Positions 4,740 through 51,147 of a stretch of 64,000 nt of DNA are shown here, piece after piece (positions within the stretch are counted from its first letter, which is position 1; each line of letters opens with the position of its first letter). The stretch is from Terrimonas ginsenosidimutans (GTDB taxonomy: Bacteria > Bacteroidota > Bacteroidia > Chitinophagales > Chitinophagaceae): the NCBI RefSeq assembly GCF_022012415.1, contig NZ_JAKLTR010000006.1, positions 124,001 through 188,000 of the forward strand, given 5' to 3'. The notes under the pieces were generated by a model. That model was not told the origin of the DNA. It saw only the letters and a list, made by a program, of their open reading frames with translations, and did no database searches. The position numbers were made by a program, and so were the translations under genes.

Positions 4740-4759
4740 ATAAAATTTAATTATTTCTG

Positions 4760-8755: not shown

Positions 8756-8811
8756 TTTAATCGTTAGCAGTGAAATGAAAGGTTACAGGCAATTAATGTC
8801 ATTCACACAAT

Positions 8812-20409: not shown

Positions 20410-20410
20410 G

Positions 20411-21973
20411 TCATTGATTGATGATCTGTACAGCCTGTTCGTTTACATCCGCCGTCTTTTTAACAATTTCAGTGATTCCCGTCAATTGATTTCCCTGCAA
20501 AATGATTCCTTTCGAATCTGATCCCTGTAATTGAAGGAAAGTTGATGTGCCGGTAGCCGGACGCGTATTCCTGATCCAGGCATTCTGCACATTCTGTAAA
20601 GAAATAACCGGTGTTCCATTTACCGGCCGGGGATTTCGTAAAGCATTCAATTCAAGACCAGTTGTCTGTTTTGCAGAAACAGCTGGCCCGCGCTGCACCT
20701 GTATGCTTACGTTATCCAGGAAGATATCTTTTGCTTTTTGTATCACGAATCCACTTTGCGCATAAATCACCACATCTGAAAAGCGGATATTCTCAACCGC
20801 CATTTCTTCCAGACCATTTATAAAGCACGCTTCATTAGTGTAGGCTGTGATATTACTGTAGCTGATATTTTTGATCTGTGGCGTTCGTTCAGAAACGGGT
20901 TCCTGCTCTGTTTTCGAATAAGCCATATCCAGTACAAATGCCTGTTCACGGATATTCTTCATGATGATATTGTCCACCCGGATATCTTCAACAGCGCCAC
21001 CACGACCTCTTGTTGTTTTGATCCGGATACCGCGGTCTGTTCCATCAAACACGCAATTCGAGATCACTATATTCTTTACACCGCCGCTCATTTCGCTGCC
21101 GATCACCACACCGCCATGACCGGAAAGCATGGTGCAGTTCGTGATCGTATAATTCTGTGCAGGCGCTGCTTTCGCGCGACCGGGTCCATCCTTTCCCGAT
21201 TTGATCGTGATGCAATCATCACCTACGCTGATATGACAGTCGGAGATATGAACATATTTGCAAGATTCCGGATTGATGCCATCCGTATTTGGTGAAGGAG
21301 GATTATTGATCGTAACTCCCTTCACCGTTACATTCTCACAAAACTCCGGGTTAACGGTCCAGAAAGGAGAATTGATGATAGTGATCCCTTCTACCAGAAC
21401 GTTTTTGCAATACATAGGCTGAATAAATGGCGGGCGGAGAAAACCCCGTTTCATTTGTTTTGGATCATCAGGCAGAAGAATGTTCTTATTCAAACTATCA
21501 AACATGATCTGCCATTTGGATCTTGGCTGGTTCGCTTTGTATCCTTCCACAAAATCCCACCACTTCTTACCATGTCCATTGATCAATCCGCGGCCTTTGA
21601 TGGCAATGTTCTCCGCTTTATATGCATAGAACATCGGAGAAAAACTTGTTACATCTACCCCTTCATACCGGCTTTCCACCATCGGCAGGTAATCATCAAA
21701 GTCGTCACTGAAATGCAACTCAGCACCGGCATCAATATAAACCGTAATGTTACTTTTCAAATGAATAGGACCAGTCAGATACTTTCCCGCAGGAAAATAA
21801 ACCGTACCTCCACCAGCTTTTACCGCAGCTGCAATCGCATTCGAAATAGCAGTCGTTGCTTTCTTGCTACTGTCTTTCTTCGCCCCAAATTTCGTCACAT
21901 CATACCACGACTGCCCATTTACCAGTAAAGTAGAAAATACCAATCCTAAAAAAAATAATTTCTTCATATTCAT
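20411..21973 (-). CDS. Secreted GH28-family polygalacturonase-like hydrolase
   Basis: Hydrolyses alpha-1,4 galacturonic linkages in homogalacturonan, or the GalA-Rha backbone of rhamnogalacturonan. The 520-aa protein has a signal peptide ending LLVNGQ. The right-handed beta-helix carries the full GH28 signature: NTDG (Asp231), GDD (Asp252/253), SGHGG (His286) and RIK (317-319). An opening motif, FGAKKDSSKKATTAISNAI, is the standard pectate-lyase-superfamily N-terminus. Two bases separate its stop from the GH95 start, and a 10-bp tandem array lies upstream after the GH67-like gene. With GH78, GH2 and GH95 beside it, exo-acting or rhamnogalacturonan-directed activity fits best. Confidence 0.92.
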   Translation of the reverse strand: MNMKKLFFLGLVFSTLLVNGQSWYDVTKFGAKKDSSKKATTAISNAIAAAVKAGGGTVYFPAGKYLTGPIHLKSNITVYIDAGAELHFSDDFDDYLPMVESRYEGVDVTSFSPMFYAYKAENIAIKGRGLINGHGKKWWDFVEGYKANQPRSKWQIMFDSLNKNILLPDDPKQMKRGFLRPPFIQPMYCKNVLVEGITIINSPFWTVNPEFCENVTVKGVTINNPPSPNTDGINPESCKYVHISDCHISVGDDCITIKSGKDGPGRAKAAPAQNYTITNCTMLSGHGGVVIGSEMSGGVKNIVISNCVFDGTDRGIRIKTTRGRGGAVEDIRVDNIIMKNIREQAFVLDMAYSKTEQEPVSERTPQIKNISYSNITAYTNEACFINGLEEMAVENIRFSDVVIYAQSGFVIQKAKDIFLDNVSIQVQRGPAVSAKQTTGLELNALRNPRPVNGTPVISLQNVQNAWIRNTRPATGTSTFLQLQGSDSKGIILQGNQLTGITEIVKKTADVNEQAVQIINQ

Positions 21974-22020
21974 ATGCGTTCAATATCCTTTTTAATTCGG
22001 AATATCATATTTCTTCCCGA

Positions 22021-22060
22021 CCATTCGCGCTCATTCGCGGCCATTCGCGCTCATTCGCGT
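22021..22060. repeat. Four-copy 10-bp tandem array (yCATTCGCGn) abutting a stop codon
   Basis: The plus strand reads CCATTCGCGC TCATTCGCGG, then the same 20-bp pair again with one change, so the unit is 10 bp, one helical turn. It begins at the stop codon of the GH67-like gene inside an otherwise compact operon. Confidence 0.85.
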
Positions 22061-24828
22061 TATTCGAATAACCAGTCAATCTCCGTCTTCACTCCATCCG
22101 GTGTGATACCCGCATCATAAGGTTTGATCAACTGATCATCGCTGATGAAGCCGAGTATCAGGCAAGCTCCTTTTTCGAGTTTTAATGTATTGGTTCCGGG
22201 TTTAAAACTGTAACTATGAACATTGACCGGTGGAAAGCCCTTTACCACAAGTGCATTGGTGATCTTCGCTTCCGACTGGCCGTATTCATTTGCGGTTGCA
22301 TTTGTTTCAAGTTCCGGTGCCTTCAAAAATTTCGAACGCCCGGAATAAGCAGCCTGTTTGAATTTGAAATAACCCACAAGAACTTTGACCGGCTTGTTAT
22401 TGGTAAACTGAACAGATGTTCCGTTTTCAAATTGAATAGCAGAAGAAAGCCGGATCGCTTTCAGCCCTTTTAATGCGGGTGCTATATCAATGAGGGAAGA
22501 AGCGGTATCCGGAAAAACCTGTGACAGGCTGTCGATCACGTAAAAGCGTGGCGAGCCAGCGATCTTTACTTCTTCATTCCGCAGCGGCTGCACTTTAACA
22601 GGTGTGAGCGCTGCACTTTTCTTTAATGAATCAATTGACCTGGTGAAATGAGCCAGCTCCTGCTCAAATGGAACCAATACCTCTGCCCATGTTTTAAACG
22701 TACCATTGACGCCACGGATCGGGATCTTTCTTTGTTGCGTCTGCATGCTGTTTGCATACAGGTAAGTTCCTTTTGTAAGTTCAACGAGTTCTTTATAACT
22801 GTTGACACTTTGCTGCAATAGCGGCAGTGATCTATCCAGGTCTGCAATATCATTCGAATACTTATACCTTAATGCATGTAATGCCGCATCGGCTTTTTGT
22901 GCAAAATGTTTGGCCAATGCACGATAGCAGTACATATCATTTTTGAGACGCTGAAACTCTTCTTTGTTCTTTGTAACACCAATGGCTGCAAGATCAATTG
23001 CAGATACTGATTTCTGCCCATGTTCCTGCACTTCGCGAATGATCTGCACAGGTGTTTCGCCGATATGTGGTTGTTTCTTCCATTCTTTCTCGGCATACTG
23101 GATCAGCATTTCTCCTTCGGGGCTTTCTCCTTCGTAAAGCAACGTAAACAATCCATAGCGGAATGGATTGATCAATTGTGTCATCAGCATGCCCAAGGTC
23201 AGTGTTTGCCTGTTTCCGTCAGTGATCCCGAAACGGCGAAGAAGCTTTGGAGCAATTTCCCCGGATTCTTCATAGGCCTGAAGGATCAGTCGTCCCTGCT
23301 CAGGACTGCAACCAAAATGCAGCGCAAGACGATCACTCCAGAAGATGATCTCCTTTTCACGTGAACGATCAGCTTTCCACGCATACCGGCTCCAGGCTGC
23401 ATACCAGATCCAGTCTCTTTCGATCTGCAGGAGACGTTGTCCTTTTACGCTGTCGGCGCTATAGGGCCAATCCCAATAAGAAGCCTGTGGATATAAATGC
23501 AGGCCGTTCCCGCCCATGATCCGATGCATTCCCTGTACAGACCGCTGAATGAAATCGGCCGATCCATAACGGAATGGTTCAAGGTTCGCAAGGATGTGTA
23601 CATTTTCGATCTGCACAGACCCGAGACGGCTGAGGGTTTGATGAAGTTCCGCCCACTGACCACGTGGTTCCGGTGTTGTTAGTGCTTCGCCATTGAACTT
23701 CGCTTCCGTATAGAGGTTCTTATATAAAGGTAATGCCGCCTTCATAACAGAAGGGGCATCCGTATCATGCGCACGTAAAACGATCGGCGGTTCTTCTTTT
23801 TTACCCAATGCTTTTAACCCATCCTGTACGCCGGGGATGATCGTTTTGGTAAACCACTCGATATCGTCAGGACCCGTCCCTTCCATTGCTTCACCGAGGC
23901 AAACCATCAGGCCAACATTTGGATATTTCTCAACGAATGCGGCAATGGATTTGCGGGTGTAATCAGCGATCAACGGGACGATAGGTCTTTCACGCTCCTG
24001 TGTTTTGATATTATGCTTTTCCGCAAAAGGCTTTGATACAATAATATTGTAGAACATCTGGATCACCCAGATGCCTCGCTTATCAGCTTCAGTAGTGAGG
24101 AATCGATAGATCTCTTCGTTCTTTTTAAATGTTGCGTCATCCACTTCCACGGCATACGGATAATCTTTCACCCGAACGAGCGATGCGAACGGGTGACCGT
24201 TCCAGAGATAGAGGGAATTCATCCGGTTTGTTACCATCGAATCCAGGTACTGGATCCAATGTTGCTTATCATAAAACCAGGGAAATGTTTCAGGCGTGTA
24301 AGGATATTCATACACGGTTCTTCCAGGAAGGTAGTAAGGCTTCTGCACACCGATGCATGCGCCACGGAGAACCATTTCGGGCTTGTCCTGAATGGAAAGT
24401 TCAGCAGGGATGTTCCTTTTATCGTTTATACGATCTGTCAGCTCAAGACAGCCGTACAACAAACCTGATGCGTCAGACGCGCCAATAAAGATCGATTTCC
24501 CTGAAGATTGGATCGAGAAACCTTCTTTCCCGGGATCCTGAAGTGAAGTAACTATTTTACCGGACAAGGCTTCTTTGTATAATGGAGACTGAAGACCGGC
24601 GATCGTTATCGTCCAGCCATTTTTAACTTTCTTCAGCTGATGTGAAGATGTTACGGTGAAGCCCGCAGTTTTCAAAGATGATTCAAGCTTTTCTATCCCG
24701 AATTTCGCCCGTGCAGAAATCTCGCTGCTATACACAAGTAAAACAGGTTCACCTCCTGAAGCACGCAGTTCTGCTCCGCAAATAACCAGAAATAAAAACG
24801 CCCAAACCTTTTTCATAGAAAACAACAT
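22060..24828 (-). CDS. Secreted GH67/GH115-like uronidase candidate
   Basis: First gene of the glycosidase operon. The 922-aa product has a signal peptide (MKKVWAFLFLVICGAELRAS), so an ATG at 24816 is an alternative start. The N-terminal alpha/beta domain (about 27-140, VLLVYSSEISARAKFG ... SGLLYGCLELTDRI) resembles the GH67/GH115 N-terminal domain. A TIM-barrel-like centre follows, with TNRMNSLYLWNGHPF, GIWVIQMFYNIIVSKPFAEK, VGLMVCLGEAMEGTG, EAKFNGEALTTPEPRGQW and an acidic cluster fit for catalysis. A long helical region and a C-terminal beta domain complete it. Activity on uronic acid linkages, possibly alpha-D-galacturonidase, is suggested by fold likeness and pectin context; I cannot assign a CAZy family with confidence. 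A terminator-like hairpin lies just upstream of the start. Confidence 0.6.
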   Translation of the reverse strand: MLFSMKKVWAFLFLVICGAELRASGGEPVLLVYSSEISARAKFGIEKLESSLKTAGFTVTSSHQLKKVKNGWTITIAGLQSPLYKEALSGKIVTSLQDPGKEGFSIQSSGKSIFIGASDASGLLYGCLELTDRINDKRNIPAELSIQDKPEMVLRGACIGVQKPYYLPGRTVYEYPYTPETFPWFYDKQHWIQYLDSMVTNRMNSLYLWNGHPFASLVRVKDYPYAVEVDDATFKKNEEIYRFLTTEADKRGIWVIQMFYNIIVSKPFAEKHNIKTQERERPIVPLIADYTRKSIAAFVEKYPNVGLMVCLGEAMEGTGPDDIEWFTKTIIPGVQDGLKALGKKEEPPIVLRAHDTDAPSVMKAALPLYKNLYTEAKFNGEALTTPEPRGQWAELHQTLSRLGSVQIENVHILANLEPFRYGSADFIQRSVQGMHRIMGGNGLHLYPQASYWDWPYSADSVKGQRLLQIERDWIWYAAWSRYAWKADRSREKEIIFWSDRLALHFGCSPEQGRLILQAYEESGEIAPKLLRRFGITDGNRQTLTLGMLMTQLINPFRYGLFTLLYEGESPEGEMLIQYAEKEWKKQPHIGETPVQIIREVQEHGQKSVSAIDLAAIGVTKNKEEFQRLKNDMYCYRALAKHFAQKADAALHALRYKYSNDIADLDRSLPLLQQSVNSYKELVELTKGTYLYANSMQTQQRKIPIRGVNGTFKTWAEVLVPFEQELAHFTRSIDSLKKSAALTPVKVQPLRNEEVKIAGSPRFYVIDSLSQVFPDTASSLIDIAPALKGLKAIRLSSAIQFENGTSVQFTNNKPVKVLVGYFKFKQAAYSGRSKFLKAPELETNATANEYGQSEAKITNALVVKGFPPVNVHSYSFKPGTNTLKLEKGACLILGFISDDQLIKPYDAGITPDGVKTEIDWLFE

Positions 24829-24929: not shown

Positions 24930-25041
24930 AAGTAAAAAGTAAAAAGTAAAAAAATCTCTCGTCAAAACAGGAACATTTGAAACTATAGTAAAGCCTATTT
25001 TGACTTTTTACTTTTGAATTTTTACTTTTTACTTTTTACTT
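24930..25041. repeat. Inverted repeat of AAGTAAA words
   Basis: Three 7-bp AAGTAAA-type words near 24930-24952 are mirrored by TTTACTT words at about 25018-25041, with about 65 bp between. The right arm overlaps the stop codon of the Gfo/Idh/MocA gene. Apart from this and the hairpin at 24.85 kb the 207-base gap shows no gene; TTTGAC/GTCAAA near 24890-24907 is a small palindrome that could be an operator. Confidence 0.7.
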
Positions 25042-26097
25042 TATTACCGGCCACTCCCCTCCTTTATCGCTCGACCGGTACGCGGCTTCCACGCAGGCCA
25101 TGGTATGAATAGCGTCTTCTACAGAGTTGTCGGGTTGATTGATCTTACCATTAGCGGCCAGCATCACCTGTTCCATACTTCCTGCAAATGCGTGCGGGAA
25201 CCAACTGCCATTAATGGTTTTGTTCTTCCATTCAGGATCTTTATCCTTAAGCGAAATATATTCGAAACTATCTGGTATGCCGGTTGGATAATTTTGTAAT
25301 ACACCCATCCCAATTCTGATCGCACCGGCAGTTCCTTCCAGTTTTATATAAGAGTGTTGTTTGTTATTTCCAAACTGATGACAATGGTTGGTAAGGATCG
25401 TTGCCCGTTCGTACTGTCCATAGTCCAGGATGATCGCGGAACGCACAGAAGCCAGTTCTTTCATCGCCGGATGGCCAACTGTTTTTGCATAAACAGTTTT
25501 GGGATTACCCAACAGATTTCTTACAAGGTCTATGTAGTGAATGCTGTGATACAAGATCTCCACGCGTGGTGATTGGAAGAGGAAATCCCATAAATGCCAG
25601 GGCGTGTATACGTTCACGTTCACTTCGATATCTACCAGTTCCCCGATCGCTCCTTCAGCGATCATCTTTTTTGCTTCCAGTATATAGGGTGCATAACGAA
25701 GCTGGAAGTTGACCGCGGCATTCATTTTTTTGCGTCGAGTGATCTCAAGGATCTGTTTGGCCATTGCAAGATCGTCACCCATAGGTTTTTGGATCAGCAC
25801 ACTGGCATTATCCGGTAGTTGTTCCAGTATGGCAGGAATTGCGCCTGCCGGAACTGCGACATCAAACACCACCGGTTCCCGTACCGCAACTACCATTTCA
25901 CTGATGCTGGCATACACCGAAGGGATTGCAAACTCCTTTGCTACACTTTCTGTTTTTTTCGGATCGAGGTCGTAGATCCCATTCACTGCATAACCTGCTA
26001 AACCATACGCCGGCAGGTGCGAGGTTGTTACGATCCCGCCCGCGCCGATCACAAGTATCGGTAGTGGTTTATATGATATCGTTTGATTCGTCATCAT
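25036..26097 (-). CDS. Gfo/Idh/MocA-family NAD(P)-dependent oxidoreductase
   Basis: Cytoplasmic sugar or sugar-acid dehydrogenase of unknown substrate, 353 aa. The Rossmann fold starts VIGAGGIVTTSHLPAYG at about residue 16. The usual EKP motif appears as QKPMG (about residue 104), with Gln in place of Glu, as in some family members. The C-terminal substrate domain has VDIEVNVNVYTPWHLWDF and YHSIHYIDLVRNLLG. The gene overlaps the stop of the RhaT-like gene by one base (TAATG). With the amidohydrolase and RhaT-like carrier it forms a three-gene cassette, suggesting oxidation of a deoxy-sugar or its acid released by the glycosidase operon just downstream. Confidence 0.85.
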   Translation of the reverse strand: MMTNQTISYKPLPILVIGAGGIVTTSHLPAYGLAGYAVNGIYDLDPKKTESVAKEFAIPSVYASISEMVVAVREPVVFDVAVPAGAIPAILEQLPDNASVLIQKPMGDDLAMAKQILEITRRKKMNAAVNFQLRYAPYILEAKKMIAEGAIGELVDIEVNVNVYTPWHLWDFLFQSPRVEILYHSIHYIDLVRNLLGNPKTVYAKTVGHPAMKELASVRSAIILDYGQYERATILTNHCHQFGNNKQHSYIKLEGTAGAIRIGMGVLQNYPTGIPDSFEYISLKDKDPEWKNKTINGSWFPHAFAGSMEQVMLAANGKINQPDNSVEDAIHTMACVEAAYRSSDKGGEWPVIK

Positions 26098-27140
26098 TAT
26101 TCTGCTGATCCGATATAATTTGCAATGGTCAATGCCATTACCGCCAGTATCAATACGGCAAGCGCAAGCCCAAGCATTACCATTGTTGGTCTTTTACATT
26201 GTTTCCATTCTTTCATCCACAGACCTGCCAGTGAACTGAACAGTACAAGCATGATCATATGGATGGTCCAACTGGTGAATTTGAAATTTCCCATCCGCAC
26301 ATGTCCCAAACCATAAAAGAAGAATTGTCCATACCACAGTAATCCGGTTAATGATGCCATGAGATAGTTAGCCGGCAGAAAACTGTTCCCTTCTTTTATA
26401 TTACTATACTCACCAAACGTTTTGTTCTTTATATGCAGGTACAAACAATACAAAGCTGTTGTAACGAACGCACCGGTGTTTGAGAAAAGATAGATCACGT
26501 TTCCCTGGAAATGTCCTGCACCATGAGCAGCGGCGACTTCAGCAATTGGTTGTCCCTGATCGATAGAAAACCCATATAGCGCAGAAAGCACACCTGCCAG
26601 CAAACAAAGCGGCAGACCTTTCGCCAGGGAGAACTGTGTTTTTGTTTCGGTGAGCGCTTCCAGATCTTTTTCTTTCTTTCTTCCGGCAACGCCGCATAAG
26701 GCAATGCCGAATGCACCGAGAAAGATGCCGGTTCCCATCAGAAATGCACCAGGACGTTGAAATACTTCACCCAGTGTTCCGTTCATCATCGGAGGAAGCA
26801 AGGTTCCCAAGACGCAGCTGATACCAACGGAGATCGCATAGGTCAGTGAAAAACCGACATATCTGATCGCGATGCCGAACGCTGTGCCGCCTATTCCGTA
26901 AGCCATTCCAAGAAAAAAAGAGCTGCGCATGGAGGCAGAAGGCGCTTCGCGCAATACATCCATCAATTCAGGAATGGTAATGAATGCGACGATCACAGGC
27001 AACAACAACCAGCACACAAATGCCTGCGCCAGCCAATATGTTTGCCAGGCCCATCCCCTCACTTTTTTCTGTGGAGTATAACAAAGAGCTGCACTGGACG
27101 CACCGACAGCATGCAATAAAACGCCATTGATCACTTCCAT
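26097..27140 (-). CDS. RhaT-like L-rhamnose/proton symporter family permease
   Basis: Inner-membrane carrier of 347 aa with about ten hydrophobic segments. It opens MEVINGVLLHAVGASSAALC followed by YTPQKKVRGWAWQTYW, closely matching the layout of enterobacterial RhaT (small N-terminal helix, APFKKV-like loop, paired aromatic Trp residues). AYGIGGTAFGIAIRYVGFSL and ISVGISCVLGTLLPP also follow RhaT. Transport of L-rhamnose or a related 6-deoxy sugar fits the alpha-L-rhamnosidase and GH28 downstream. The start lies inside the end of the amidohydrolase gene (10-nt overlap), so translation is coupled. No rhamnose isomerase, kinase or aldolase is present in the window. Confidence 0.87.
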   Translation of the reverse strand: MEVINGVLLHAVGASSAALCYTPQKKVRGWAWQTYWLAQAFVCWLLLPVIVAFITIPELMDVLREAPSASMRSSFFLGMAYGIGGTAFGIAIRYVGFSLTYAISVGISCVLGTLLPPMMNGTLGEVFQRPGAFLMGTGIFLGAFGIALCGVAGRKKEKDLEALTETKTQFSLAKGLPLCLLAGVLSALYGFSIDQGQPIAEVAAAHGAGHFQGNVIYLFSNTGAFVTTALYCLYLHIKNKTFGEYSNIKEGNSFLPANYLMASLTGLLWYGQFFFYGLGHVRMGNFKFTSWTIHMIMLVLFSSLAGLWMKEWKQCKRPTMVMLGLALAVLILAVMALTIANYIGSAE

Positions 27141-28018
27141 GTATTGCCTGCTTTAACCGGAGTTTTTATTGTATAAAATTTTTTCGCTGAATGATAAAGC
27201 ACCTGCTCCTGTTCTTCCGTTGAAAGTATTTCTTCCAGTACTTCACGATATATTTTCCAGATAGAACTGTATTCGCCTGCCAGTAAAGACACGGGCCAAT
27301 CTCCGCCACAAAAACATCGTTCCACCCCAAAATGCTTTATCGCAAATTCTATATATGGCTGAATCTCCTTCCTGGTTCGTCCTTCAAAATGGCCGGAAGC
27401 CGTTCCCAACCCGGAGATCTTTGCTGAAAATGCTTTGTGTTTTGCAGCTGTTCTCATCAGTTCACCCCATTCCCCAAACCGTTGCTGAGAAGATATGGGT
27501 GGCTGACTTAAATGATCAAACACCATATTCAGGGCGGGTATTCTGTTAACCACTTCCAACGCCGTTTTGATATGTGCTGTTTTTACGGCTACGATATCAA
27601 ACGGAATGGAATAACCCGCCAGTATCTTCAAACTTTCGATCACCTTATCCTGCAATAGCCATTCACTATTTGGTTCATCATGTATCTGATGCCGGACTCC
27701 GCAGAAGTACGGATTGGATAGATGCTTTTCCTCCAGCTGACGTTGCACCGCATCAGGATCAAGTAATGGCAACCAGGCCACCACCCCACTGATCCAGGAA
27801 GTATTTGCCGCAACGTGCAGCATATGATCAGTATCTTCTTCATTACCTGCCGCCTGAACCAATATCCCTTCCGTTACACCCGCAGCAACACGTTCCGTCT
27901 CCAATGCTCCGATCTCCCAGGTTTGATTCAGCAATGAAGTATCGCCTTTCAACCACGGATAATCTGCTTTAGAGAGATCCCAAACGTGAACGTGAGTGTC
28001 TATCGTTTTCAATGGCAT
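27131..28018 (-). CDS. COG3618-type amidohydrolase (sugar lactonase-like)
   Basis: Cytoplasmic TIM-barrel metal hydrolase of 295 aa, likely opening a sugar-acid lactone as in L-fucono- or L-rhamnono-lactonase routes. It starts IDTHVHVWD (His9, His11), with VFDHLSQP (conserved His) and CGGDWPVS (metal Asp) near the C-terminus. These are the usual residues of the family (Amidohydro_2). It is first in the operon with the RhaT-like carrier and an oxidoreductase. With the aldo-keto reductase at 51.4 kb resembling L-fucose dehydrogenases, a non-phosphorylative 6-deoxy-sugar path is possible but not shown. The spacer above it holds two AT-rich inverted repeats. Confidence 0.85.
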   Translation of the reverse strand: MPLKTIDTHVHVWDLSKADYPWLKGDTSLLNQTWEIGALETERVAAGVTEGILVQAAGNEEDTDHMLHVAANTSWISGVVAWLPLLDPDAVQRQLEEKHLSNPYFCGVRHQIHDEPNSEWLLQDKVIESLKILAGYSIPFDIVAVKTAHIKTALEVVNRIPALNMVFDHLSQPPISSQQRFGEWGELMRTAAKHKAFSAKISGLGTASGHFEGRTRKEIQPYIEFAIKHFGVERCFCGGDWPVSLLAGEYSSIWKIYREVLEEILSTEEQEQVLYHSAKKFYTIKTPVKAGNTWK

Positions 28019-28030
28019 GAGAGGAGAAGA

Positions 28031-28257
28031 AAGTTTAAAAGTTTAATAGTTTAAAAGTTTAATAGTTCAAGAGTTTACAGACTCGTAGTAGTTCAACATT
28101 AAACTATTGAACTATTAAACTCCCTACCTATGCCCGACGTGTCTACCTTTTTTGATAGCCTGAGAGCAGAAAAAGGTTTTATGTTTTAATGTTTAAAAGT
28201 TTACAGCATCGTAGTAGTTCAACATTAAACTATTAAACTTTTAAACTTTTAAACTTC
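28031..28257. repeat. Duplicated AT-rich inverted repeat (GTTTAAnA words)
   Basis: Two related modules occupy the 249-base gap. Both contain CGTAGTAGTTCAACATTAAA (28084 and 28210), preceded by AGTTTACAG. Each is flanked by 8-bp words GTTTAAAA/GTTTAATA on one side and their complements on the other, so each module can fold. Between them ACCTTTTT/AAAAAGGT forms a smaller hairpin. The right end lies about 10 nt from the CoA-transferase stop codon. Confidence 0.8.
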
Positions 28258-28267
28258 TACCCCCCGC

Positions 28268-29434
28268 CTATCCCCGCGGCGACATCTCCTTGAGCAATCC
28301 GAATTGTTCTTCAATCTGTTCGTTATGTTCCCCGAGCAAAGGCGCTCCGGTTCCTGATAATAGTATGTCACCATCAACACGGATCGGGCAGCGGGTAGTT
28401 GTAACAGAAATGCCGTTGCCGGTTTTTACTGTTATTTCCATATCCAGGACCTTATATCCCTCTTGCTGGAGCAACTCATCATAGTTCAGTACGGCTGCGC
28501 ACCAGATATCGGCTTTTTCCAGTATCCCGAGCCAGTGTGCAGTTGTGTGATGAACCAGATGATCAGCAAGAATGGCTTTGATCGTATCGCGTTTATTGAA
28601 CCAGTCCTGGCTTTCGGTAAACTGCAATAATGGTTCGCATCCAAGCAGGTTACCCAGCAGCAGGATATTGCCCATTGCCAATGCAATATACCCATCTTTT
28701 GTACGGTAAATACCGTATGGCGCCGCAATATAGGCATGGGCGCTATTTACGGCACTCCTGACCGGTAGTTCGTTACCATCGTTGTAATAACAGGTCAGCA
28801 CTTCAAACTGAAAATCAAGAATACTTTCCATCATGCTCACCTGCACCAGTGCGCCTTCACCGGTAATTCCGCGCTGATAAAGCGTTGCAAGAATTCCCTG
28901 CGCGATATGCGTACCCGCCATAATATCTACAACAGCCACTCCCATTGGAGTCGGGCCTTCATTGTCGTTATTACTCAACCAGCTCAGACCTGAAACAGCC
29001 TGCAATAACAGGTCTTGTCCGGGAAGATCCTTCCAGGGACCTTCGTTGCCATAGCCGCTTACTTCAGCATAAATAATACCGGGGTTGATCTGTTTAACTA
29101 CTTCATAGCTCAAACCGATCCGTTCCATTACGCCGGGTCTGAAATTATGGATCATCACATCGGCCTGCGCCAGTAAATGTTTCACTCTTTCGAGGTCATC
29201 CGGGTTTTTCAGATCCGCCGCATAGCTTTGTTTGTTGCGGTTGATGGCATGAAAGATGGTTGATTCACCTTCCAGCAAAACGTCTGATACATATAGTTGG
29301 CGACAGATATCTCCAGTACCAGGTTTTTCGATTTTAATCACCTGCGCACCAAGATCGGCAAGCCGTAACGCCGCAGACGGGCCAGATAAAAACTGGCTGA
29401 AATCCACTACTACTATATCCTGCAATAAGTTCAT
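28268..29434 (-). CDS. Family III CoA-transferase (CaiB/BaiF), paralogue A
   Basis: Moves CoA between carboxylic acids in the cytoplasm. The 388-aa protein shows FSQFLSGPSAALRLADLGAQ, VIKIEKPGTGD, NRNKQSYAADLKN, HNFRPGVMERIGL and the catalytic Asp170 in AVVDIMAGTH, matching the formyl-CoA-transferase nucleophile position. It sits 6 nt downstream of a clear paralogue, with a MaoC-type hydratase and a solute-binding-protein homologue upstream. Such pairs can form heteromers, as in succinyl-CoA:malate or benzylsuccinate CoA-transferases. The likely job is activation of an organic acid that the MaoC enzyme hydrates or dehydrates. Last gene of its operon. Confidence 0.9.
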   Translation of the reverse strand: MNLLQDIVVVDFSQFLSGPSAALRLADLGAQVIKIEKPGTGDICRQLYVSDVLLEGESTIFHAINRNKQSYAADLKNPDDLERVKHLLAQADVMIHNFRPGVMERIGLSYEVVKQINPGIIYAEVSGYGNEGPWKDLPGQDLLLQAVSGLSWLSNNDNEGPTPMGVAVVDIMAGTHIAQGILATLYQRGITGEGALVQVSMMESILDFQFEVLTCYYNDGNELPVRSAVNSAHAYIAAPYGIYRTKDGYIALAMGNILLLGNLLGCEPLLQFTESQDWFNKRDTIKAILADHLVHHTTAHWLGILEKADIWCAAVLNYDELLQQEGYKVLDMEITVKTGNGISVTTTRCPIRVDGDILLSGTGAPLLGEHNEQIEEQFGLLKEMSPRG

Positions 29435-29440
29435 ACGTGC

Positions 29441-30586
29441 TTAGTGATTTAATAATTCATTCTTCACTTTCTCATTGTGTTCCCCCAACTGAGGTGCAGC
29501 GGCCGATGCAAACAAACGCTGTCCGTTGATCCGGATAGGGCAACGGGTAGTCGTAATGTTTCCATTCGCCGTTTTGATCTGCTGTTCCATCCGAAGGCTT
29601 TTATAGCCTGCATGATCACGCATTTGTTTCCAATCCAGTACTTCCATTGCCCAAAGACCGGCAGTATGCAGACGCTGCAACCAATATGCAGAAGGCTGAG
29701 TAACGAGATGTTTGGCCAGGGTGGCTTTGATCTCATCACGCGAGGAGAAGACAAGATCCTTTGCGTATTGCTCCAATGGTTCACAATTGATCGCTTTTGC
29801 CAGTGCACTAATGTCCATCATTGCAAGTGCGATGTGCCCATCAGCTGTTGCATACAATCCATACGGCGCGCCAAGTAAGGGATGACCATTATTTCGGTCA
29901 CTTCGTGATGGCTGTTGCCCATTGGTATAATAGGTTGTCAGTAATTCAAATTGGAAATCGAGCAACGATTCCATCAGGCTTAGCTCGATCAATGCGCCTT
30001 TGCCTGTCTTCTGGCGGCGGATCAATGCAGCCAGTACTCCCTGCACTAATTGAGCTCCGCAAAGTATATCTGCGATGGCGATACCGAAGGGAACAGGCGC
30101 CTGTTGTCCGTTGCCTGTGGTATGCGTTAATCCGGTGATGGACTGCAATAAGAGATCCTGCCCGGGCTTATTCTTCCATGGCCCCTTCTTTCCATAACCT
30201 GAGATCTCTGCATAAATGAGACGCGGATTAACGGTCTGCAAGGCTTCATACCCAAACCCTTTCTTTTCCATCACGCCGGGCCTGTAGTTGTGTAAAACCA
30301 CATCCGACTTTGCAATGAGTTTCAGCAACAGCGCCCGGTCTTCTTCATTATTGAGATCCGCCGTAATACTTTCTTTATTTCGATTGATGGTATGAAAAAG
30401 CAGAGAGCTATCATCCACCCAAAGATTCTTGATGGCCAGTTTTCTTCCTGCATCACCGGTACCCGGGCGTTCGATCTTTATAACCCGCGCGCCAAGATCC
30501 GCCAGCCTCAACCCTGCTGATGGAGCCGAGAGATACTGGCTGAACTCCAGCACTAATAAACCCTGTAAAGGTAATCCCATCATCAT
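29441..30586 (-). CDS. Family III CoA-transferase (CaiB/BaiF), paralogue B
   Basis: 381 aa, same family as its downstream neighbour: LEFSQYLSAPSAGLRLADLG, VIKIERPGTGD, NRNKESITADLNN, HNYRPGVMEKKGF and the candidate catalytic Asp173 in GIAIADILCGAQ. Both paralogues keep the Asp, so either could be active alone; a heteromer is also plausible. The start overlaps the stop of the solute-binding-like gene by four bases (ATGA). The substrate is unknown. Co-transcription with MaoC and control by the same box as two pectate-lyase operons point to a plant-derived acid or a breakdown product of sugar acids. Confidence 0.9.
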   Translation of the reverse strand: MMMGLPLQGLLVLEFSQYLSAPSAGLRLADLGARVIKIERPGTGDAGRKLAIKNLWVDDSSLLFHTINRNKESITADLNNEEDRALLLKLIAKSDVVLHNYRPGVMEKKGFGYEALQTVNPRLIYAEISGYGKKGPWKNKPGQDLLLQSITGLTHTTGNGQQAPVPFGIAIADILCGAQLVQGVLAALIRRQKTGKGALIELSLMESLLDFQFELLTTYYTNGQQPSRSDRNNGHPLLGAPYGLYATADGHIALAMMDISALAKAINCEPLEQYAKDLVFSSRDEIKATLAKHLVTQPSAYWLQRLHTAGLWAMEVLDWKQMRDHAGYKSLRMEQQIKTANGNITTTRCPIRINGQRLFASAAAPQLGEHNEKVKNELLNH

Positions 30587-31749
30587 GCAATAATTTTTGA
30601 ATCGTTGGTTACAAAGCTCTTTCTGTATATTTCATTTAATTGCTGCAAGGTTTTCTTTGCGGTCAGTTCGCCTAAAAGAAACTGCTGAACCGGGTCACCG
30701 CCATGATCCTGAAAATGCAGATATCCATTGTATCTCGGACGCAGGTAACCATTTTCCATTACCGGCAAACACTGCCTGAAGAAATCGTTGGAAATGCGAT
30801 TTGAATCAGTATTAAGCCAGGCAGCTTTATGGCCCGGCTGACCACCATTCTGTACATACAACGTTTGCTGCCATTCATTCGAAACCGCTTTCGCTGCAAA
30901 ATCCACCGCTATTTCCGGATGTTTGCCCGAAGCAGAAACAGACAAACCTGTTCCTCCGATCGTTGTACGCAAACGTGCATTACCAAATCTTACCACGTCT
31001 GTATATTTCAATAGATACTTTGAATAGCCGATCCTTGAATAATTGGAATAACAATACGCGAACGGACAATACCAGTAATCATTGGTGTTGCTCATCAACT
31101 CCGCCACTGCGATAGGGTTGCATTTGAAGAAACGTTTATCCACAAGGGAATAAAACTCTTTCATAGACTCCAGCGCAGCCAAACCGGTTACTTCGCCGAT
31201 CACTTCTTCCTGTGTTTGAAATGGCTCTTTGCCATGAGCGATACAGAAGGTATAGAAATTCATCAGTAGATCAATGGGAATTGCCGGAACAGCTACCTTT
31301 CCCATTTTTGCTAGTACCAACACTTCCTCCCAGGTCTGCGGAATGCTTTTGTTGTGGTCTGTCAGCAGGTCGCGGCGATAGCTTGCGACGGGTGTTGCAG
31401 CATCAATTGCGAGTGCCCATTGCCCGCCTTCATAGTTATAGCTGAAGTGAGAGTCCCCCACTGAGTTGTCCGCCTGATCCTTCAGGTACTGCGCATCAAG
31501 ATATTTATCAAGAGGCAGTACGCAATTGGTTGCTGCAGCACAACCCACCCAGGGGTGATCTATGATCAGCAGATCATAGTCGAGTGTAAGTTTCTCTATA
31601 GGAAAATCAGCAAATTCCTGGAGCGTTCTTTTCTTCCATTGAATTTCCACTTCAGGATGCAGTTCCATATAACGTTGCGAAACGGCGAGCAGTGGCGTGA
31701 TGCCCCTGCTATGTCCCCAGGTAATACCTTTCAAAATAATTTTCGACAT
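30583..31749 (-). CDS. Solute-binding-protein homologue without a signal peptide
   Basis: A type 2 periplasmic-binding fold related to family 1 ABC solute-binding proteins: YMELHPEVEIQWKKRTLQEF, LTLDYDLLIIDHPWVG, LPLDKYLD, PQTWEEVLVLAKMG, GGTGLSVSASGKHPEIAVDFAA. The N-terminus (MSKIILKGITWGHSRG) goes straight into the fold with no signal peptide or lipobox, so it should stay in the cytoplasm. No ABC permease or ATPase is present in the window. It is packed between a MaoC gene (1-nt gap) and a CoA-transferase (4-nt overlap). It may be a cytosolic ligand sensor, a carrier or an enzyme subunit. 388 aa. Function not known. Confidence 0.75.
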   Translation of the reverse strand: MSKIILKGITWGHSRGITPLLAVSQRYMELHPEVEIQWKKRTLQEFADFPIEKLTLDYDLLIIDHPWVGCAAATNCVLPLDKYLDAQYLKDQADNSVGDSHFSYNYEGGQWALAIDAATPVASYRRDLLTDHNKSIPQTWEEVLVLAKMGKVAVPAIPIDLLMNFYTFCIAHGKEPFQTQEEVIGEVTGLAALESMKEFYSLVDKRFFKCNPIAVAELMSNTNDYWYCPFAYCYSNYSRIGYSKYLLKYTDVVRFGNARLRTTIGGTGLSVSASGKHPEIAVDFAAKAVSNEWQQTLYVQNGGQPGHKAAWLNTDSNRISNDFFRQCLPVMENGYLRPRYNGYLHFQDHGGDPVQQFLLGELTAKKTLQQLNEIYRKSFVTNDSKIIA

Positions 31750-31750
31750 A

Positions 31751-32194
31751 CTATTTTTCTTTCCTGCTTACCAGCAATAAATGTTCACAAACCATTACCA
31801 GCTCCTGCCTCTGATTAAACACTTCCACTTTCTCTGTCACCAAACCGAACTCCGGTTTCTTATGATCAGCTTTCGCTGCAATAGTAACCGTTGCTTTAAT
31901 GGTATCACCAATATAAACGGGACGGGTGAAGCGGAGTTTTTCATAACCATAAGTCATCGCCACTTCATTGACCACTTCAGCTGTCAGGCCAACGCCGATC
32001 GTAAAGATCAGCGTGCCATGAGCAATGCGATGTTTGAATGGTTGCGTTTTGCACCATTCTTCATCCATATGATGGGGAAAAAAATCACCGGACTGACCGG
32101 CATGCAATACGATATCAGTTTCCGTCACAGTTCTTCCCTTGGTGGTACGCGAACTGTTCAGTTCAAATTCTTCGAAATATTGTTTGATAAACAT
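31751..32194 (-). CDS. MaoC-family hot-dog dehydratase/hydratase
   Basis: A 147-aa single hot-dog-domain protein of the (R)-specific enoyl-CoA hydratase type, adding or removing water on an acyl-CoA. The signature [16 protein letters not shown] holds the catalytic pair Asp37 and His41/42, followed by [15 protein letters not shown], as in the family pattern. First large gene of the operon with the solute-binding homologue and both CoA-transferases, which would supply its CoA ester. The transcription start is predicted near 32386, leaving a long leader of about 190 nt that contains a 37-codon ORF. Confidence 0.9.
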
Positions 32195-32325: not shown

Positions 32326-32392
32326 AAAATCAATCGTTACAATGATTTCCCACCGGGGAAACAGCGCTTAAAAAGCACTTGTAATCAAAGCA

Positions 32393-32423
32393 TTAAATTA
32401 GAATGAAGGCGATCGGGATTCAA
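32393..32423 (-). promoter_or_regulatory. Promoter of the MaoC/SBP/CoA-transferase operon
   Basis: On the minus strand TTG at 32423-32421, a 20-nt spacer and TAATTTAA at 32400-32393 repeat the geometry of the promoters at 8.8 and 51.15 kb. The -7 match is the weakest of the three. Confidence 0.6.
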
Positions 32424-32461
32424 TGTCAGGTTTTACTGAATTGATGGAAGATTTTCCTATT
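32421..32461 (-). promoter_or_regulatory. Direct-repeat operator box 3
   Basis: Half-sites AGGAAAATCTTCCAT and AGTAAAACCTGACAT start 21 bp apart and end at the -33 TTG. Ungapped, it matches box 1 at 35 of 41 positions, although the genes it controls are unrelated to those behind box 1. This makes a shared regulator more likely than a recent duplication of the whole locus. Confidence 0.7.
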
Positions 32462-42535: not shown

Positions 42536-44095
42536 TCAGCCAGTAATATTCCCATTCGAATGCGATGCCTTTTTCCACCTGCTATACACCAGGTTCTCCG
42601 CTATCGCCGGCGGCGGAAAAAACAAACTCGCAAGATATCCAATCACCAGTACGATCAAATGACTGTAAACTCCCAGCATCAGCTTATGATGCGTGAAATT
42701 AAACCTCCCAAGATCCAGGATCAGTTTTTTATCATTTACCCCGACCGGCGTAGACGTCAGAAATGCATATGCAGTAAAAAGAATGCAGACAACAATGCCG
42801 ATATTCACTCCCTGCCTGTTGGCGCGTTTACTCAAAAAACCCAGCATGAAAATACCAACGATACCACCAGAGAAGATCGCATAGATCGTGAAGATCACAC
42901 CTAACACGCCTTCATTCCCCACACTCAGGTAGATCGCTCCGATACAGGCCGAAAGAATTCCGGCGAATACGACCATCGCCTTACCGGCAAAAAGATATTC
43001 CTTGTCCGCCCGGTTCTTCCTGATCTTCTTATAATAATCCTCCACCCCAACCGCGGCAAGCGAATTAATGTCCGCACTCAAACTGCAGATCGCCGCAGAG
43101 ATCAATGCCGCCAGTATGAATCCGATGATCCCAACCGGTAACTGCGTTACCATAAAATGCGGGAACACCTCCTCAGGGCGCATTCCCTCCGGCAGCCCTT
43201 TTTGCTTATACAACACAAACAATGCAGTTCCAATGAACATAAACATTGCCCAGACAGGTACCGCCAGAAATATTCCCATTAAGGATGCTTTGATCGCAGA
43301 CTTATCCGTTTTCGCAGTCAGATATCGTTGGACTACTGTTTGATCTGTTGCATATTTCTGCACAGCATAAAAAGCCCCGTTGATCACCATGACAAATAAA
43401 GTCAATTGTGTAAGTTCGAAACTATACGGGCCGAAGCCTGCCCGATCATTTGCTGAGGCAATTTTGATTGTTTCAGTCCAGCCTCCATCAATTGTAGACA
43501 ACAGGATCACAACGCAAATTATTCCGCTGGCAAACAGCATGAATCCCTGGAAAACATCGAGCCAGATCACGGCCTGTATGCCACCCTTCAGATTCACTAT
43601 TATCAAGATCAGGCTAACGACCGCTAATACTACAAACGGATTCAACGATGTGATGCTGCCTATCGCAGCAGACAATAGAAACAAGACTGTTCCCATGCCC
43701 GCAAACTGGCGCAGTACAAATGAAGACGAACTGTAGTACCGGGCAAAAAGGCCGAAGCGCTTCTCAAAATATTCGTATGTGCTAAGACCGATGACCCGGC
43801 GATAAAGCGGTACAATAAACCAGACAACAAACACCAGCACAACAGGCACCATTAGCCCCTGCACCAGCAGGATCCAGTTGCTCGTAAATCCCTGCGCAGG
43901 ATATCCGAGAAATGTTACGCTGCTGATCAATGTCGCGAGCAAAGACAGTCCAAGTGCCCAGGAAGGAAAATGACCTTTTGAAAGAAAAAAGCTCTCCGTG
44001 CTTTTCTGCCGTTTTGCAAATCGAAAGCCCAAAAACAGCGTAATCCCCAACACCAATGAAATGATCGTGTAATCAATAAAATGTAGTTGCTTCAT
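42536..44095 (-). CDS. Sodium:solute symporter family permease
   Basis: Inner-membrane SSS-family transporter (519 aa, about 13 hydrophobic segments) that takes up a sugar, sugar acid or related solute with sodium. It starts IDYTIISLVLGITLFLGFRFAKRQKSTESFFLSKG, the standard family opening, followed by LSLLATLISSVTFLGYPAQGF and later KYATDQTVVQRYLTAK, a signature region of the family. The start overlaps the stop of the DUF1537 kinase by four bases (ATGA), so the carrier and the kinase are made together. This strongly suggests that it imports the four-carbon acid sugar or its precursor. Confidence 0.92.
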   Translation of the reverse strand: MKQLHFIDYTIISLVLGITLFLGFRFAKRQKSTESFFLSKGHFPSWALGLSLLATLISSVTFLGYPAQGFTSNWILLVQGLMVPVVLVFVVWFIVPLYRRVIGLSTYEYFEKRFGLFARYYSSSSFVLRQFAGMGTVLFLLSAAIGSITSLNPFVVLAVVSLILIIVNLKGGIQAVIWLDVFQGFMLFASGIICVVILLSTIDGGWTETIKIASANDRAGFGPYSFELTQLTLFVMVINGAFYAVQKYATDQTVVQRYLTAKTDKSAIKASLMGIFLAVPVWAMFMFIGTALFVLYKQKGLPEGMRPEEVFPHFMVTQLPVGIIGFILAALISAAICSLSADINSLAAVGVEDYYKKIRKNRADKEYLFAGKAMVVFAGILSACIGAIYLSVGNEGVLGVIFTIYAIFSGGIVGIFMLGFLSKRANRQGVNIGIVVCILFTAYAFLTSTPVGVNDKKLILDLGRFNFTHHKLMLGVYSHLIVLVIGYLASLFFPPPAIAENLVYSRWKKASHSNGNITG

Positions 44096-45240
44096 GATTG
44101 CTGGTTATATGGCTTCGTTAAATAAAGATCTTTGATGCTCTGAGGGACCGCATAGCTGCCCGGTTTTACGGTAATGTACAGATCACCTGCTTTCATTCTT
44201 ACAACACCTCGCTGCGATTCATTGGCTATATCAAATGATGAAAGTTGTAACCGCTTCAAGATCGCAGCAGCCGTGCTGCCGCCTTCAATAAAAATCTCAC
44301 GGAAATGCAACTGCTGCTGCAAATGCTGAACAACACCTGCCATTGATTCGCGTATATATTGCGGGGTAAGATCGGCAGTATGGCCAACTGCGAGAAGAAG
44401 TTTGCCGCCCGAATAAACAATATCCTGTATTTTGGCAAATTGAGCATCTGTAAAAGAGAAAGGATCCCTCGCAAGATCCGTATGGTGCAGATAGATAACA
44501 TTGCCGGATCCCTGATCAATTTGTTCAACTAACCTCTGGCTCGTTTGAGCAGTCGTTCCACATACATACAAATGCGGTAACAAGATTGCCGGATCATCAC
44601 TGAAACGTTCCGCGAAGCTGGCTGCCAGCAATCTCTCAAAAAAATCACCGGCGCCGGCAAGAAGCCATGCTGACTCAATAAGGCCTACCCAATGATCCAT
44701 ATCTTCAATCGTAGATGCTTCAGCGATTGAAATAATTTGCTTCCATTTATCCTGACCTCTCGATAAAACATCTACACCTTTACCGTCCTTACTGATCATT
44801 TCTTTGACCAATGCCGACTTCACCGGAAACTCCGGGTCATCTGCAAAAGCTGTATCCGTGATTAATTGTTCGTTAATGTAATATTGTCCGGAAATGATCT
44901 TCCGGCCCAAAGAAGGATTAGCCGGAAGGATGATTGCCCGCTGCTTACCCGTAAGCTGCATCTGTACACTGATCTCATCAAACACATAGCCTCTTAATAC
45001 AGAATCTATCTTTTTATAAATAAATGAGGGATTCAGTTCCTGTAAGGCAACAACGATGTTACGGGTAACTTCCAGCGCGTCAGCCCTGCTCATCGATCGG
45101 CTGTCACTTGACACAATGCAAACATCACACGCTTCGTAGGAAGCAATACCAGTATAAAGCTTTACCTGCAGACCATAGCGCAAGCTGATACCTGCGAGCT
45201 CGGCAGCACCCGTAAAATCATCGGCAATAACGGCAATCAT
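44092..45240 (-). CDS. DUF1537 four-carbon acid-sugar kinase
   Basis: Phosphorylates a four-carbon aldonate such as D-threonate or an erythronate. The 382-aa protein has the N-terminal domain opening IAVIADDFTGAAELAG, with KIDSVLRGYVFDEI, ILPANPSLGRKIISGQYYIN, and in the nucleotide-binding C-terminal domain FIEGGSTAAAILKRL and MKAGDLYITVKPGSYAVPQSI. Followed in the same operon by a PdxA2-like dehydrogenase, the established D-threonate kinase / 4-phosphate dehydrogenase pairing. Threonate versus erythronate cannot be settled from sequence alone. Confidence 0.9.
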   Translation of the reverse strand: MIAVIADDFTGAAELAGISLRYGLQVKLYTGIASYEACDVCIVSSDSRSMSRADALEVTRNIVVALQELNPSFIYKKIDSVLRGYVFDEISVQMQLTGKQRAIILPANPSLGRKIISGQYYINEQLITDTAFADDPEFPVKSALVKEMISKDGKGVDVLSRGQDKWKQIISIAEASTIEDMDHWVGLIESAWLLAGAGDFFERLLAASFAERFSDDPAILLPHLYVCGTTAQTSQRLVEQIDQGSGNVIYLHHTDLARDPFSFTDAQFAKIQDIVYSGGKLLLAVGHTADLTPQYIRESMAGVVQHLQQQLHFREIFIEGGSTAAAILKRLQLSSFDIANESQRGVVRMKAGDLYITVKPGSYAVPQSIKDLYLTKPYNQQS

Positions 45241-45282
45241 TTTTATTTTCTTGAATAGCGGTCAGCTATTATTGGCAAGAGT

Positions 45283-46323
45283 TCAGCCACGGTTATGACT
45301 AAGCTGCACAGCGCTTTCTATTGCTAGCACCATTGCATCAGGACTTGCAATACCTTTCCCTGCGATCTCGAAAGCCGTACCATGATCTACAGACGTCCGG
45401 ATGATTGGCAGCCCCAGCGTAATGTTCACTCCTTTCACACTATCCATTTGCTGTTTTTCTGCGTTCCATTTGAAACCGGCAAGTTTGAAAGGAATATGCC
45501 CCTGGTCGTGATACATGGCCACTACTCCACCATAAGCCCCCATTGCCGCTTTAGCAAACATCGTATCTGGCGGAATGGGGCCTTCAACATCATATCCCAT
45601 TCGCTTCGCCTCTTCAACAGCCGGAAGTATTTCCTCATCGTCCTCCGTACCAAATAAACCACTATCCCCTGCATGCGGGTTCAGGCCAGCAACACCGATC
45701 TTTAGGTTTGTTTTTCCGAGGCGTTTCAAACCATCCGTTAGCAATTCAATCACCTGAATGATCCTGTCCTTTTTTACCAGATCGCAGGCCTGGCGCAGTG
45801 ATACGTGTGTACTTACATGGATAACATTGATGTTGTCCTCCACCAGTAACATTGCGTATTTCTTTGTATTGGTAAAATGTGCATAGATCTCAGTGTGTCC
45901 GGCGAAATGATGACCGGCTTCGTTGATCGATTTCTTATTGATCGGGCCAGTCACGGTTGCATCAACTTCCTTCGCTATCGCCAGTTCGATCGCTTTTGCA
46001 ACAGCCTGGTAAGATGCTTCTCCCGCCATGGCGTCGATTTTACCAAAGGAGACTTTGCTGATATCCGTGATACCAAGATCAAATACATTTATAATACCCG
46101 GACTAAAATCAGCTTCACCCACTTTACTGATTGCATTTACTTTGAGTGGAAATTTCAGTAACTCTATGATCTGCTGAAAAACGACTGCATCACCGGTTAT
46201 AATTGGTCTACAAATATCGAGTACTTCTTTTTTCAGGATCGCTTTTGCGGCAATTTCGGGGCCGATACTCGCCGGGTCTCCCATAGTAATTGCAACGATC
46301 GGTTTTTTATTCATTTGATTCAA
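45283..46323 (-). CDS. pdxA2: PdxA-family (PdxA2-like) 4-phospho-acid-sugar dehydrogenase
   Basis: NAD-dependent oxidative decarboxylase. PdxA itself acts on 4-phosphohydroxy-threonine; PdxA2 next to DUF1537 kinases converts 4-phospho-threonate or erythronate to dihydroxyacetone phosphate. The 346-aa protein shows AITMGDPASIGPEIAAKA, GPINKKSI, AGHTEIYAHFT (metal His), LNPHAGDSGLFGTED and MYHDQGHIPFKL, so the metal-binding histidines are present. Placement between the kinase and an aldolase supports the catabolic version rather than vitamin B6 synthesis. In-frame ATG four codons in is a minor alternative. Confidence 0.88.
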   Translation of the reverse strand: MNQMNKKPIVAITMGDPASIGPEIAAKAILKKEVLDICRPIITGDAVVFQQIIELLKFPLKVNAISKVGEADFSPGIINVFDLGITDISKVSFGKIDAMAGEASYQAVAKAIELAIAKEVDATVTGPINKKSINEAGHHFAGHTEIYAHFTNTKKYAMLLVEDNINVIHVSTHVSLRQACDLVKKDRIIQVIELLTDGLKRLGKTNLKIGVAGLNPHAGDSGLFGTEDDEEILPAVEEAKRMGYDVEGPIPPDTMFAKAAMGAYGGVVAMYHDQGHIPFKLAGFKWNAEKQQMDSVKGVNITLGLPIIRTSVDHGTAFEIAGKGIASPDAMVLAIESAVQLSHNRG

Positions 46324-46416
46324 CTTATCTGGTTCTTTGTTATCCTACTGCAAAGGCAATCGATACATGAAAAACCTTCTTCCGGTCTCGCGTAGGATTC
46401 CCGCAGGATCTGGTTT

Positions 46417-48476: not shown

Positions 48477-48507
48477 TATTTCTTAAAAAATTATCGATCC
48501 ATTTATT

Positions 48508-49176: not shown

Positions 49177-49198
49177 ATGATATTTTTTAACCAATGGG

Positions 49199-51081: not shown

Positions 51082-51147
51082 AGCAGTAATTATTAATCGT
51101 TAGAAAAGCATACCGGATGACAGATAACAGACCCGGTACATTTATGC

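Follow-up and report, generated by a model that had tools for sequence, protein, structure and literature searches.

A conserved direct-repeat box points to a likely shared AraC-type regulator for probable rhamnogalacturonan-II operons, a CoA-transferase operon among them, in Terrimonas ginsenosidimutans

The 64-kb stretch of T. ginsenosidimutans DNA analysed here (the window) carries three direct-repeat boxes, each followed by a set of genes (Table 1). Their content is as the initial annotation had read it: DUF3826 and a pectate-lyase-like protein occur twice, and MaoC, an SBP-like protein and two class III CoA-transferases are found at box 2. The two pectate-lyase-like proteins match NCBIfam PelZ at E 4.4e-38 and 7.9e-37, in each case well short of the curated cut-off, and neither has a Pfam pectate-lyase match; the one at 883-2541 also matches the PDB pectate lyase 9buj (E 3.4e-38). 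The box-2 amidohydrolase is fuconolactonase-like. The SBP-like protein, very conserved and encoded between MaoC and the CoA-transferases, has a maltose-binding-protein fold and no signal peptide that could be seen by eye; it is probably a cytosolic sugar-binding fold. A new enzyme fold for this protein was considered and set aside, since its confidently predicted structure (pLDDT 92.9) finds its best matches among maltose/trehalose-type binding proteins.

Table 1. Boxes, promoter elements and genes of the window (model R1 is described in the text).
Feature	Coordinates	Strand	Sequence or genes	Remarks
Box 1	8838..8879	-	direct repeat AGTAAAATCTTCCAT-N6-AGTCAAACCTTACAT, then TTG	model R1 E 3.7e-16
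Box 2	32421..32461	-	AGGAAAATCTTCCAT-N6-AGTAAAACCTGACAT, then TTG	model R1 E 5.1e-15
Box 3	51174..51215	-	AGTAAAATCTTCCAT-N6-AGCCAAACCTTACAT, then TTG	model R1 E 7.6e-15
-7 element of box 1	8811..8819	-	TACCTTTAA	20 nt past box-1 TTG
-7 element of box 2	32392..32400	-	TAATTTAAT	20 nt past box-2 TTG
-7 element of box 3	51147..51155	-	TAATTTTAG	20 nt past box-3 TTG
Operon behind box 1	883..8755	-	DUF3826 8000-8755, SusC 4760-7963, SusD 2685-4706, pectate-lyase-like 883-2541	
Genes behind box 2	25036..32194	-	MaoC 31751-32194, SBP-like 30583-31749, CoA-transferase III x2	
Box-2 CoA-transferases III	29441-30586, 28268-29434	-		
Box-2 genes past 249-bp gap		-	Amidohydro_2 lactonase-like 27131-28018, RhaT 26097-27140, Gfo/Idh 25036-26097	
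Genes behind box 3	42536..50836	-	pectate-lyase-like 49199-50836, DUF3826 48508-49194	
Remaining box-3 genes		-	Fe-ADH, DHDPS-type aldolase, PdxA, DUF1537 kinase, SSF transporter	
RG-II glycosidases between boxes 2 and 1	8897..24828	-	GH138 homologue 22060-24828	codirectional
Other glycosidases in 8897..24828		-	GH28, GH95, GH2 + malectin, GH78, GH2	

All three boxes were recovered at the positions first given for them, on the minus strand, and all have the same architecture: a pair of 15-bp half-sites at 21-bp spacing that adjoins TTG-N20-TAnnTT. The half-site pair, its spacing and the -7 element 20 nt beyond the TTG had each been described correctly, CATTG being followed after 20 nt by TACCTTTA, TAATTTAA or TAATTTTA. 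Boxes 1 and 3 are identical at 40/42 positions, as reported, and boxes 1 and 2 at 34/42 in the common register, which agrees with the earlier count of 35/41 once one upstream base is added and the last two are dropped. When up to 3 mismatches are allowed, the pattern AGTNAAANCTTNCAT-N6-AGTNAAANCTTNCAT recovers only these three boxes in the window (0, 2 and 1 mismatches) and only these three promoters in the whole genome (7,144,125 bases); it has 0 matches in 100 dinucleotide shuffles of the window, and a reversed control pattern has 0 over the whole genome. The promoter consensus of Bacteroidota is -33/-7. Direct repeats whose 15-17-bp half-sites are spaced by about 21 bp, with the proximal half-site beside the promoter -35/-33, are found here as in the operators of the AraC/XylS family, among them E. 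coli araI1-I2 and the Pseudomonas XylS Pm sites.

The leaders behind boxes 3 (50837-51175, minus strand) and 2 (32195-32420, minus strand) are long, with small ORFs of about 82 and about 37 codons, and a TAACGATTRA stretch stands ahead of an ATG in the leaders of all three boxes. Judged by eye, there are similar G+C-rich stretches near box 3 (51240-51340) and box 2 (32630-32690), perhaps copies of a dispersed repeat.

We ran the pattern, including its TTG, over 119 genomes, that of T. ginsenosidimutans and those of 118 relatives. It matched 15 sites in 7/119 genomes, and the control pattern matched in none of the 119. In four other genera (G066, G023, G028 and G026) the orthologous MaoC-SBP-CoA-transferase operon has a site immediately ahead of it. 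The orthologous DUF3826-SusC-SusD operon is preceded by one in the same four and in G004, the lyase gene following in G066, G023, G028 and G004 and the contig of G026 ending at SusD. A weight matrix built from the 15 sites added others before the MaoC operon of G049 (score 51.7) and G004 (47.2), weaker ones before that of G065 (26.7) and G016 (15.1), and one (24.4) before the SusC-SusD-SBP genes of G005. In G031, G019 and G046 nothing ahead of the operon scored 8 or more, reversed sequence of the loci then scanned reaching 9.9; these three genomes have the SBP gene (in G046 a 36% homologue), no box ahead of it, and no orthologue of the AraC-type protein introduced below.

For a wider view, a scan with an SBP alignment covered 238 relatives, and the best 80 loci were named. 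When reversed, the best 80 loci (1.42 Mb) yield 2 scores of at least 14, and because the higher of them is 15.4, the 15.1 of G016 is not secure. Upstream of the SBP gene in the best 80 of 238 loci, the 45 sites with a score of at least 25 show a sharp footprint: the half-sites hold 1.60 and 1.50 bits per position, partly through selection on score, the upstream 40 nt 0.08, the 20-nt spacer 0.19 and the -7 region 1.06. TAnnTT, absent from the matrix, occurs at +20 in 43/45 sites and at +19 in 2/45, and the box ends in TTG in 35/45 and in TTT in 10/45. Of the loci with these sites, L162, L193 and L195 come from the first-set genomes G049, G026 and G004. Gene order behind box 2 is mostly preserved in the orthologous loci. 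Among the best 80 of 238, MaoC, SBP and two CoA-transferases are present in 68/80, with lactonase and Gfo/Idh genes too in 60/80. From its presence before orthologous operons in other genera, with 0 control matches, the predicted operator is real and conserved. On this comparative evidence the proposals of the initial annotation that the repeats are AraC-type sites at -33, and that a single regulator serves both the PL/DUF3826 operons and the CoA-transferase operon, are supported.

The regulon appears wider than the three operons first proposed. Model R1, a sequence-only model made from the 15 sites with their -7 elements and scanned over the 119 genomes, gives five sites in this genome at E<=0.05: boxes 1-3, C56:105827-105895 and C63:31602-31669. 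The predicted regulon thus takes in at least five promoters, two of them outside the window. The site at C56:105827-105895 heads a run of codirectional genes extending as far as an AraC-type gene (C56:84805-85728) 21 kb away; we infer that the whole run is transcribed together, in which case the regulator would control itself. Orthologues of the first gene of this run have a site immediately ahead of them in G004, G008, G028, G049 and G065, with weak scores (E 0.0013 to 0.0024) in G028, G049 and G065. The C63 site stands ahead of SusC, SusD and two proteins that in NCBIfam match OiaK (NF042436) and OiaX (NF042437) best, at E 3.6e-111 and 2.8e-155 and with scores of 372 and 517 against a cut-off of 700. 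The Oia pathway is that of apiose catabolism; the C63 operon resembles it in having both proteins as best matches, but differs in scoring below the curated cut-offs and in its association with SusC/SusD and an AraC box. G004 likewise carries a site at its orthologous SusC/SusD pair (63% and 68%), and its OiaX homologue is found downstream of the other boxed promoter.

Which protein might read the box? A Pfam scan of 42 genes of the window found no regulator. The AraC-type gene that the run reaches, G000:C56:84805-85728, lies about 70 kb from the boxes, and its product combines a cupin sensor with a double helix-turn-helix (PF00165/PF12833/PF02311). Orthologues of at least 61% identity (the next best proteins having 41-42%) are present in 11/119 genomes, and model R1 at E<=3.1e-4 picks out the same 11 and 0/108 others, the best match outside being 7.3e-4. 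This fit is partly built in, because the 15 training boxes came from 7/11 of these genomes; G005, G016, G049 and G065 gave no training box, and of these G016, G049 and G065 are clear independent cases and G005 a borderline one. The SBP gene is found in 14/119 genomes, including all 11 with the AraC orthologue, and in 4/11 the two genes are 3.3-4.6 kb apart. In the first recognition helix, whose place we assume to be that in MarA, Arg (SRFS) is present in 11/11 orthologues and His in 19/19 aligned paralogues. A candidate regulator with an AraC helix-turn-helix and a ligand domain is thus linked to the sites, by association only; the box co-occurs, more or less closely, with all genes of the RG-II locus, and the genome has 82 AraC-type helix-turn-helix matches, this candidate being the one that was followed against the box.

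Co-occurrence was then counted in 74 further SBP genomes, which are the 80 named loci less the duplicates of G049, G026, G004 and G031 and less L159 and L225. With a box score of at least 18, both box and AraC are present in 42, the box only in 2, AraC only in 3 and neither in 27 (Fisher p 1.2e-14, a value that ignores descent); at 25 or above the counts are 40, 1, 5 and 28. Two of the genomes with neither (L160 and L201) are contigs ending near the operon; those with a box and no orthologue (L161 and L186) are both metagenome assemblies; and those with AraC and no box of at least 18 before the operon are L172 (16.6), L192 and L199. On the SBP tree the box changes 6 times and AraC 8 times, and well-supported branches offer only 2 independent pairs, mostly agreeing, with which a sign test cannot reach significance; the co-occurrence rests mostly on shared descent, which inflates it. 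A class-wide scan of 395 genomes found the AraC orthologue in 3, all in the window's family, one of which (G485) repeats the match coordinates of G127 and therefore adds no case. Model matches below 1e-4 occur in 2/3 genomes with the orthologue and 0/392 others; since isolated matches with E 2.1e-4 to 9.7e-4 occur in 5/392 genomes without it, low-scoring sites, including the two in G005 (3.1e-4 and 1.1e-3), are not secure by score.

Two other regulators were considered and rejected. A DeoR gene at C56:196189-196956 does not track the box, being found at E<=1e-40 in 5/11 and in 15/108 genomes, and the AraC gene beside one G004 site (L035:17031-17906) encodes, judged by eye, a different protein.

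We consider it likely that a single AraC-family activator uses the boxes as its operators and controls a regulon for RG-II (rhamnogalacturonan-II, a highly complex pectin of plants), with the product of G000:C56:84805-85728 as the likely activator. The operator reading draws on sequence, conservation, gene content and co-occurrence, and from these we infer binding, activation, ligand, reactions and self-control. A cytosolic RG-II sugar would fill the cupin domain; two AraC monomers would then occupy the two 15-bp half-sites, which lie on one helix face with two turns between them and of which the proximal one touches the -33 TTG, and would recruit RNA polymerase to the -33/-7 promoter. Targets in the window would be the DUF3826/SusC/SusD/lyase (box 1), MaoC/SBP/CoA-transferase (box 2) and lyase/aldolase/Fe-ADH/PdxA/DUF1537 (box 3) genes and, outside it, the promoter of the run reaching araC itself and the SusC/SusD-OiaX-OiaK operon on C63. 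With the regulators of the AraC/XylS systems the candidate shares the two-helix-turn-helix domain and cupin sensor; unlike their operators, the present putative one is set at a Bacteroidota -33/-7 promoter, and both its target set and the sequence of its half-sites are new. As far as our searches show, the predicted mechanism is an ordinary AraC-type one and the target set is new among the literature matches listed: none of these describes an AraC regulon for RG-II, most subscription journals being outside the search.

The initial annotation had left the regulator as either AraC-type or HTCS; the former is favoured, with the free-standing, cupin-bearing AraC as best candidate. That the boxes are sites of an HTCS (hybrid two-component) regulator encoded elsewhere, as in Bacteroides rhamnogalacturonan loci, while the nearby AraC controls something else, is in our view unlikely. 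The genome does encode AraC-HTH proteins of HTCS size, about 1,300-1,500 aa. We take BT0977-1030 to be the RG-II locus of B. thetaiotaomicron. According to one article, this locus has an HTCS, BT0981, for which no motif could be predicted; the motifs that were predicted for HTCS regulators take the form of direct repeats, 21 bp on average, that of the Bacteroides Rgu-2 HTCS consisting of two 14-bp sites with a 6-bp spacer (PMC3878776). As described there, the HTCS_Rgu-1/2 regulons resemble the present one in their direct-repeat motif, sites over the HTCS set being 21 bp apart on average, and in having SusC/SusD, lyases and glycosidases as targets, whereas our candidate is a one-piece AraC without periplasmic sensor, with cytosolic sugar-acid and CoA enzymes among its predicted targets. 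Nor is an HTCS gene found in the locus: the annotated ORFs of C56 84-228 kb include no HTCS-sized regulator, a search that left out a 1,056-aa ORF at 121418-124588 and most ORFs past 188 kb, which are too short for an HTCS. The free-standing AraC tracks the box across genomes and adjoins the operon in four. Another Bacteroides regulator, RhaR, is likewise of the AraC family and serves sugar catabolism, but has, in the same article, a single target operon (PMC3878776); as described there it differs from the present regulon, with its at least five promoters and RG-II enzymes.

It is very improbable that the three boxes are recent promoter copies carried along with duplicated PL/DUF3826 operons, which would make a shared regulon needless: the near-identical boxes 1 and 3 (40/42) do both stand ahead of PL/DUF3826 genes, but flanking sequences have no evident match by eye, and in other genera the box precedes three different operon types with unconserved flanks. 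We give as little credence to a conserved element that is no protein operator, for instance an RNA or initiation element, which would suit its place at a promoter, but not a direct repeat at two helical turns whose core is upstream of -33/-7 and hence outside the expected transcript.

If AraC is the activator, what does it respond to? The initial annotation had proposed pectate breakdown, and here the evidence leads elsewhere: RG-II enzymes fill the locus, making RG-II, rather than pectate generally, the predicted substrate. The GH138 homologue matches BPa0997 / 6HZF at E=0, an enzyme that we take to be the GH138 acting on RG-II chain A; the window and its left flank also encode GH28, GH95, GH78 and GH2 as well as GH106, GH127, GH43-like, apiosidase-like and BT_1020-like proteins. 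RG-II-specific glycosidases are thus present as in an RG-II utilisation locus, and by its gene content this is an RG-II locus. Among the best 80 of 238 loci, a GH138-like gene is found in 35/80 within the stretch examined, and some homologue of the RG-II locus in 54/80, the 26 with none including some short contigs. DUF3826 is, according to one study, also the C-terminal domain of BT1017, a methylesterase essential to RG-II use by B. thetaiotaomicron, and BT1022 resembles it, neither BT1022 nor the BT1017 DUF3826 domain binding RG-II (PMC7939467).

Very probably, the CoA-transferase operon takes part in the use of RG-II. More tentatively, and with doubt prevailing, the box-2 MaoC/cytosolic-SBP/two-CoA-transferase/lactonase/RhaT/Gfo-Idh operon might serve aceric acid catabolism, so that one AraC would switch the apiose, Dha and aceric acid pathways. 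Oxidation of a sugar, opening of its lactone and coupling to CoA fit a branched sugar acid, and aceric acid, which is a branched deoxy sugar acid, is proposed because it is a signature RG-II sugar without another visible route in this regulon, Kdo and the methylated sugars having been left out of the weighing; it would be imported, oxidised at C1 and, once its lactone had been opened, enter CoA-thioester chemistry. Against this proposal, the scheme leaves MaoC without an assigned step, and in five loci (L194, L197, L198, L200 and L205) the SBP gene occurs without MaoC or CoA-transferase homologues. None of the literature matches listed, from a search that most subscription journals lay outside, concerns CoA-transferases in aceric acid use.

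A DUF1537 kinase and PdxA2 make up the D-threonate route, which we propose for Dha on stereochemical reasoning of our own. The aldolase, Fe-ADH, DUF1537 kinase and PdxA behind box 3 may form a Dha pathway, the enzyme matches being too unspecific for proof: the DUF1537 protein matches DtnK at E 1e-35 and the PdxA protein D-threonate-4-phosphate dehydrogenase at E 5.2e-98, both below cut-off, and a generic PdxA model outscores the latter (7.3e-111). In Gramella jeungdoensis (L211) the MaoC operon, which has no box ahead of it, adjoins Fe-ADH, DHDPS, PdxA, DUF1537 and a GH138 homologue.

Were all this true, one AraC would switch dedicated pathways for three signature sugars of RG-II: apiose (OiaX/OiaK on C63), Dha (box 3) and aceric acid (box 2). 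A 2025 review gives the plant biosynthetic enzymes for Dha and aceric acid as unidentified and standards as lacking (PMC12168206). We offer a candidate regulator and operator for the use of RG-II in the family to which the window belongs, G004 included; as a tool, the operator ties the CoA-transferase operon to RG-II and leads blindly to the apiose-type operon on C63, which narrows the search for enzymes degrading the rare sugars of RG-II.

Two further arrangements were seen among the named loci. In Niastella and Longitalea (L166, L168-L171, L175, L176 and L181) a second box, scoring 23 to 44, is found near 19.7-20.1 kb, close to a SusC homologue that lies downstream of the MaoC operon at a distance of about 10 kb. 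The boxless loci L213, L214, L217, L220, L222, L224 and L225 have the order CoAT1-CoAT2-DUF5703-MaoC-MaoC-SBP-lactonase-RhaT-Gfo/Idh, perhaps under another regulator.
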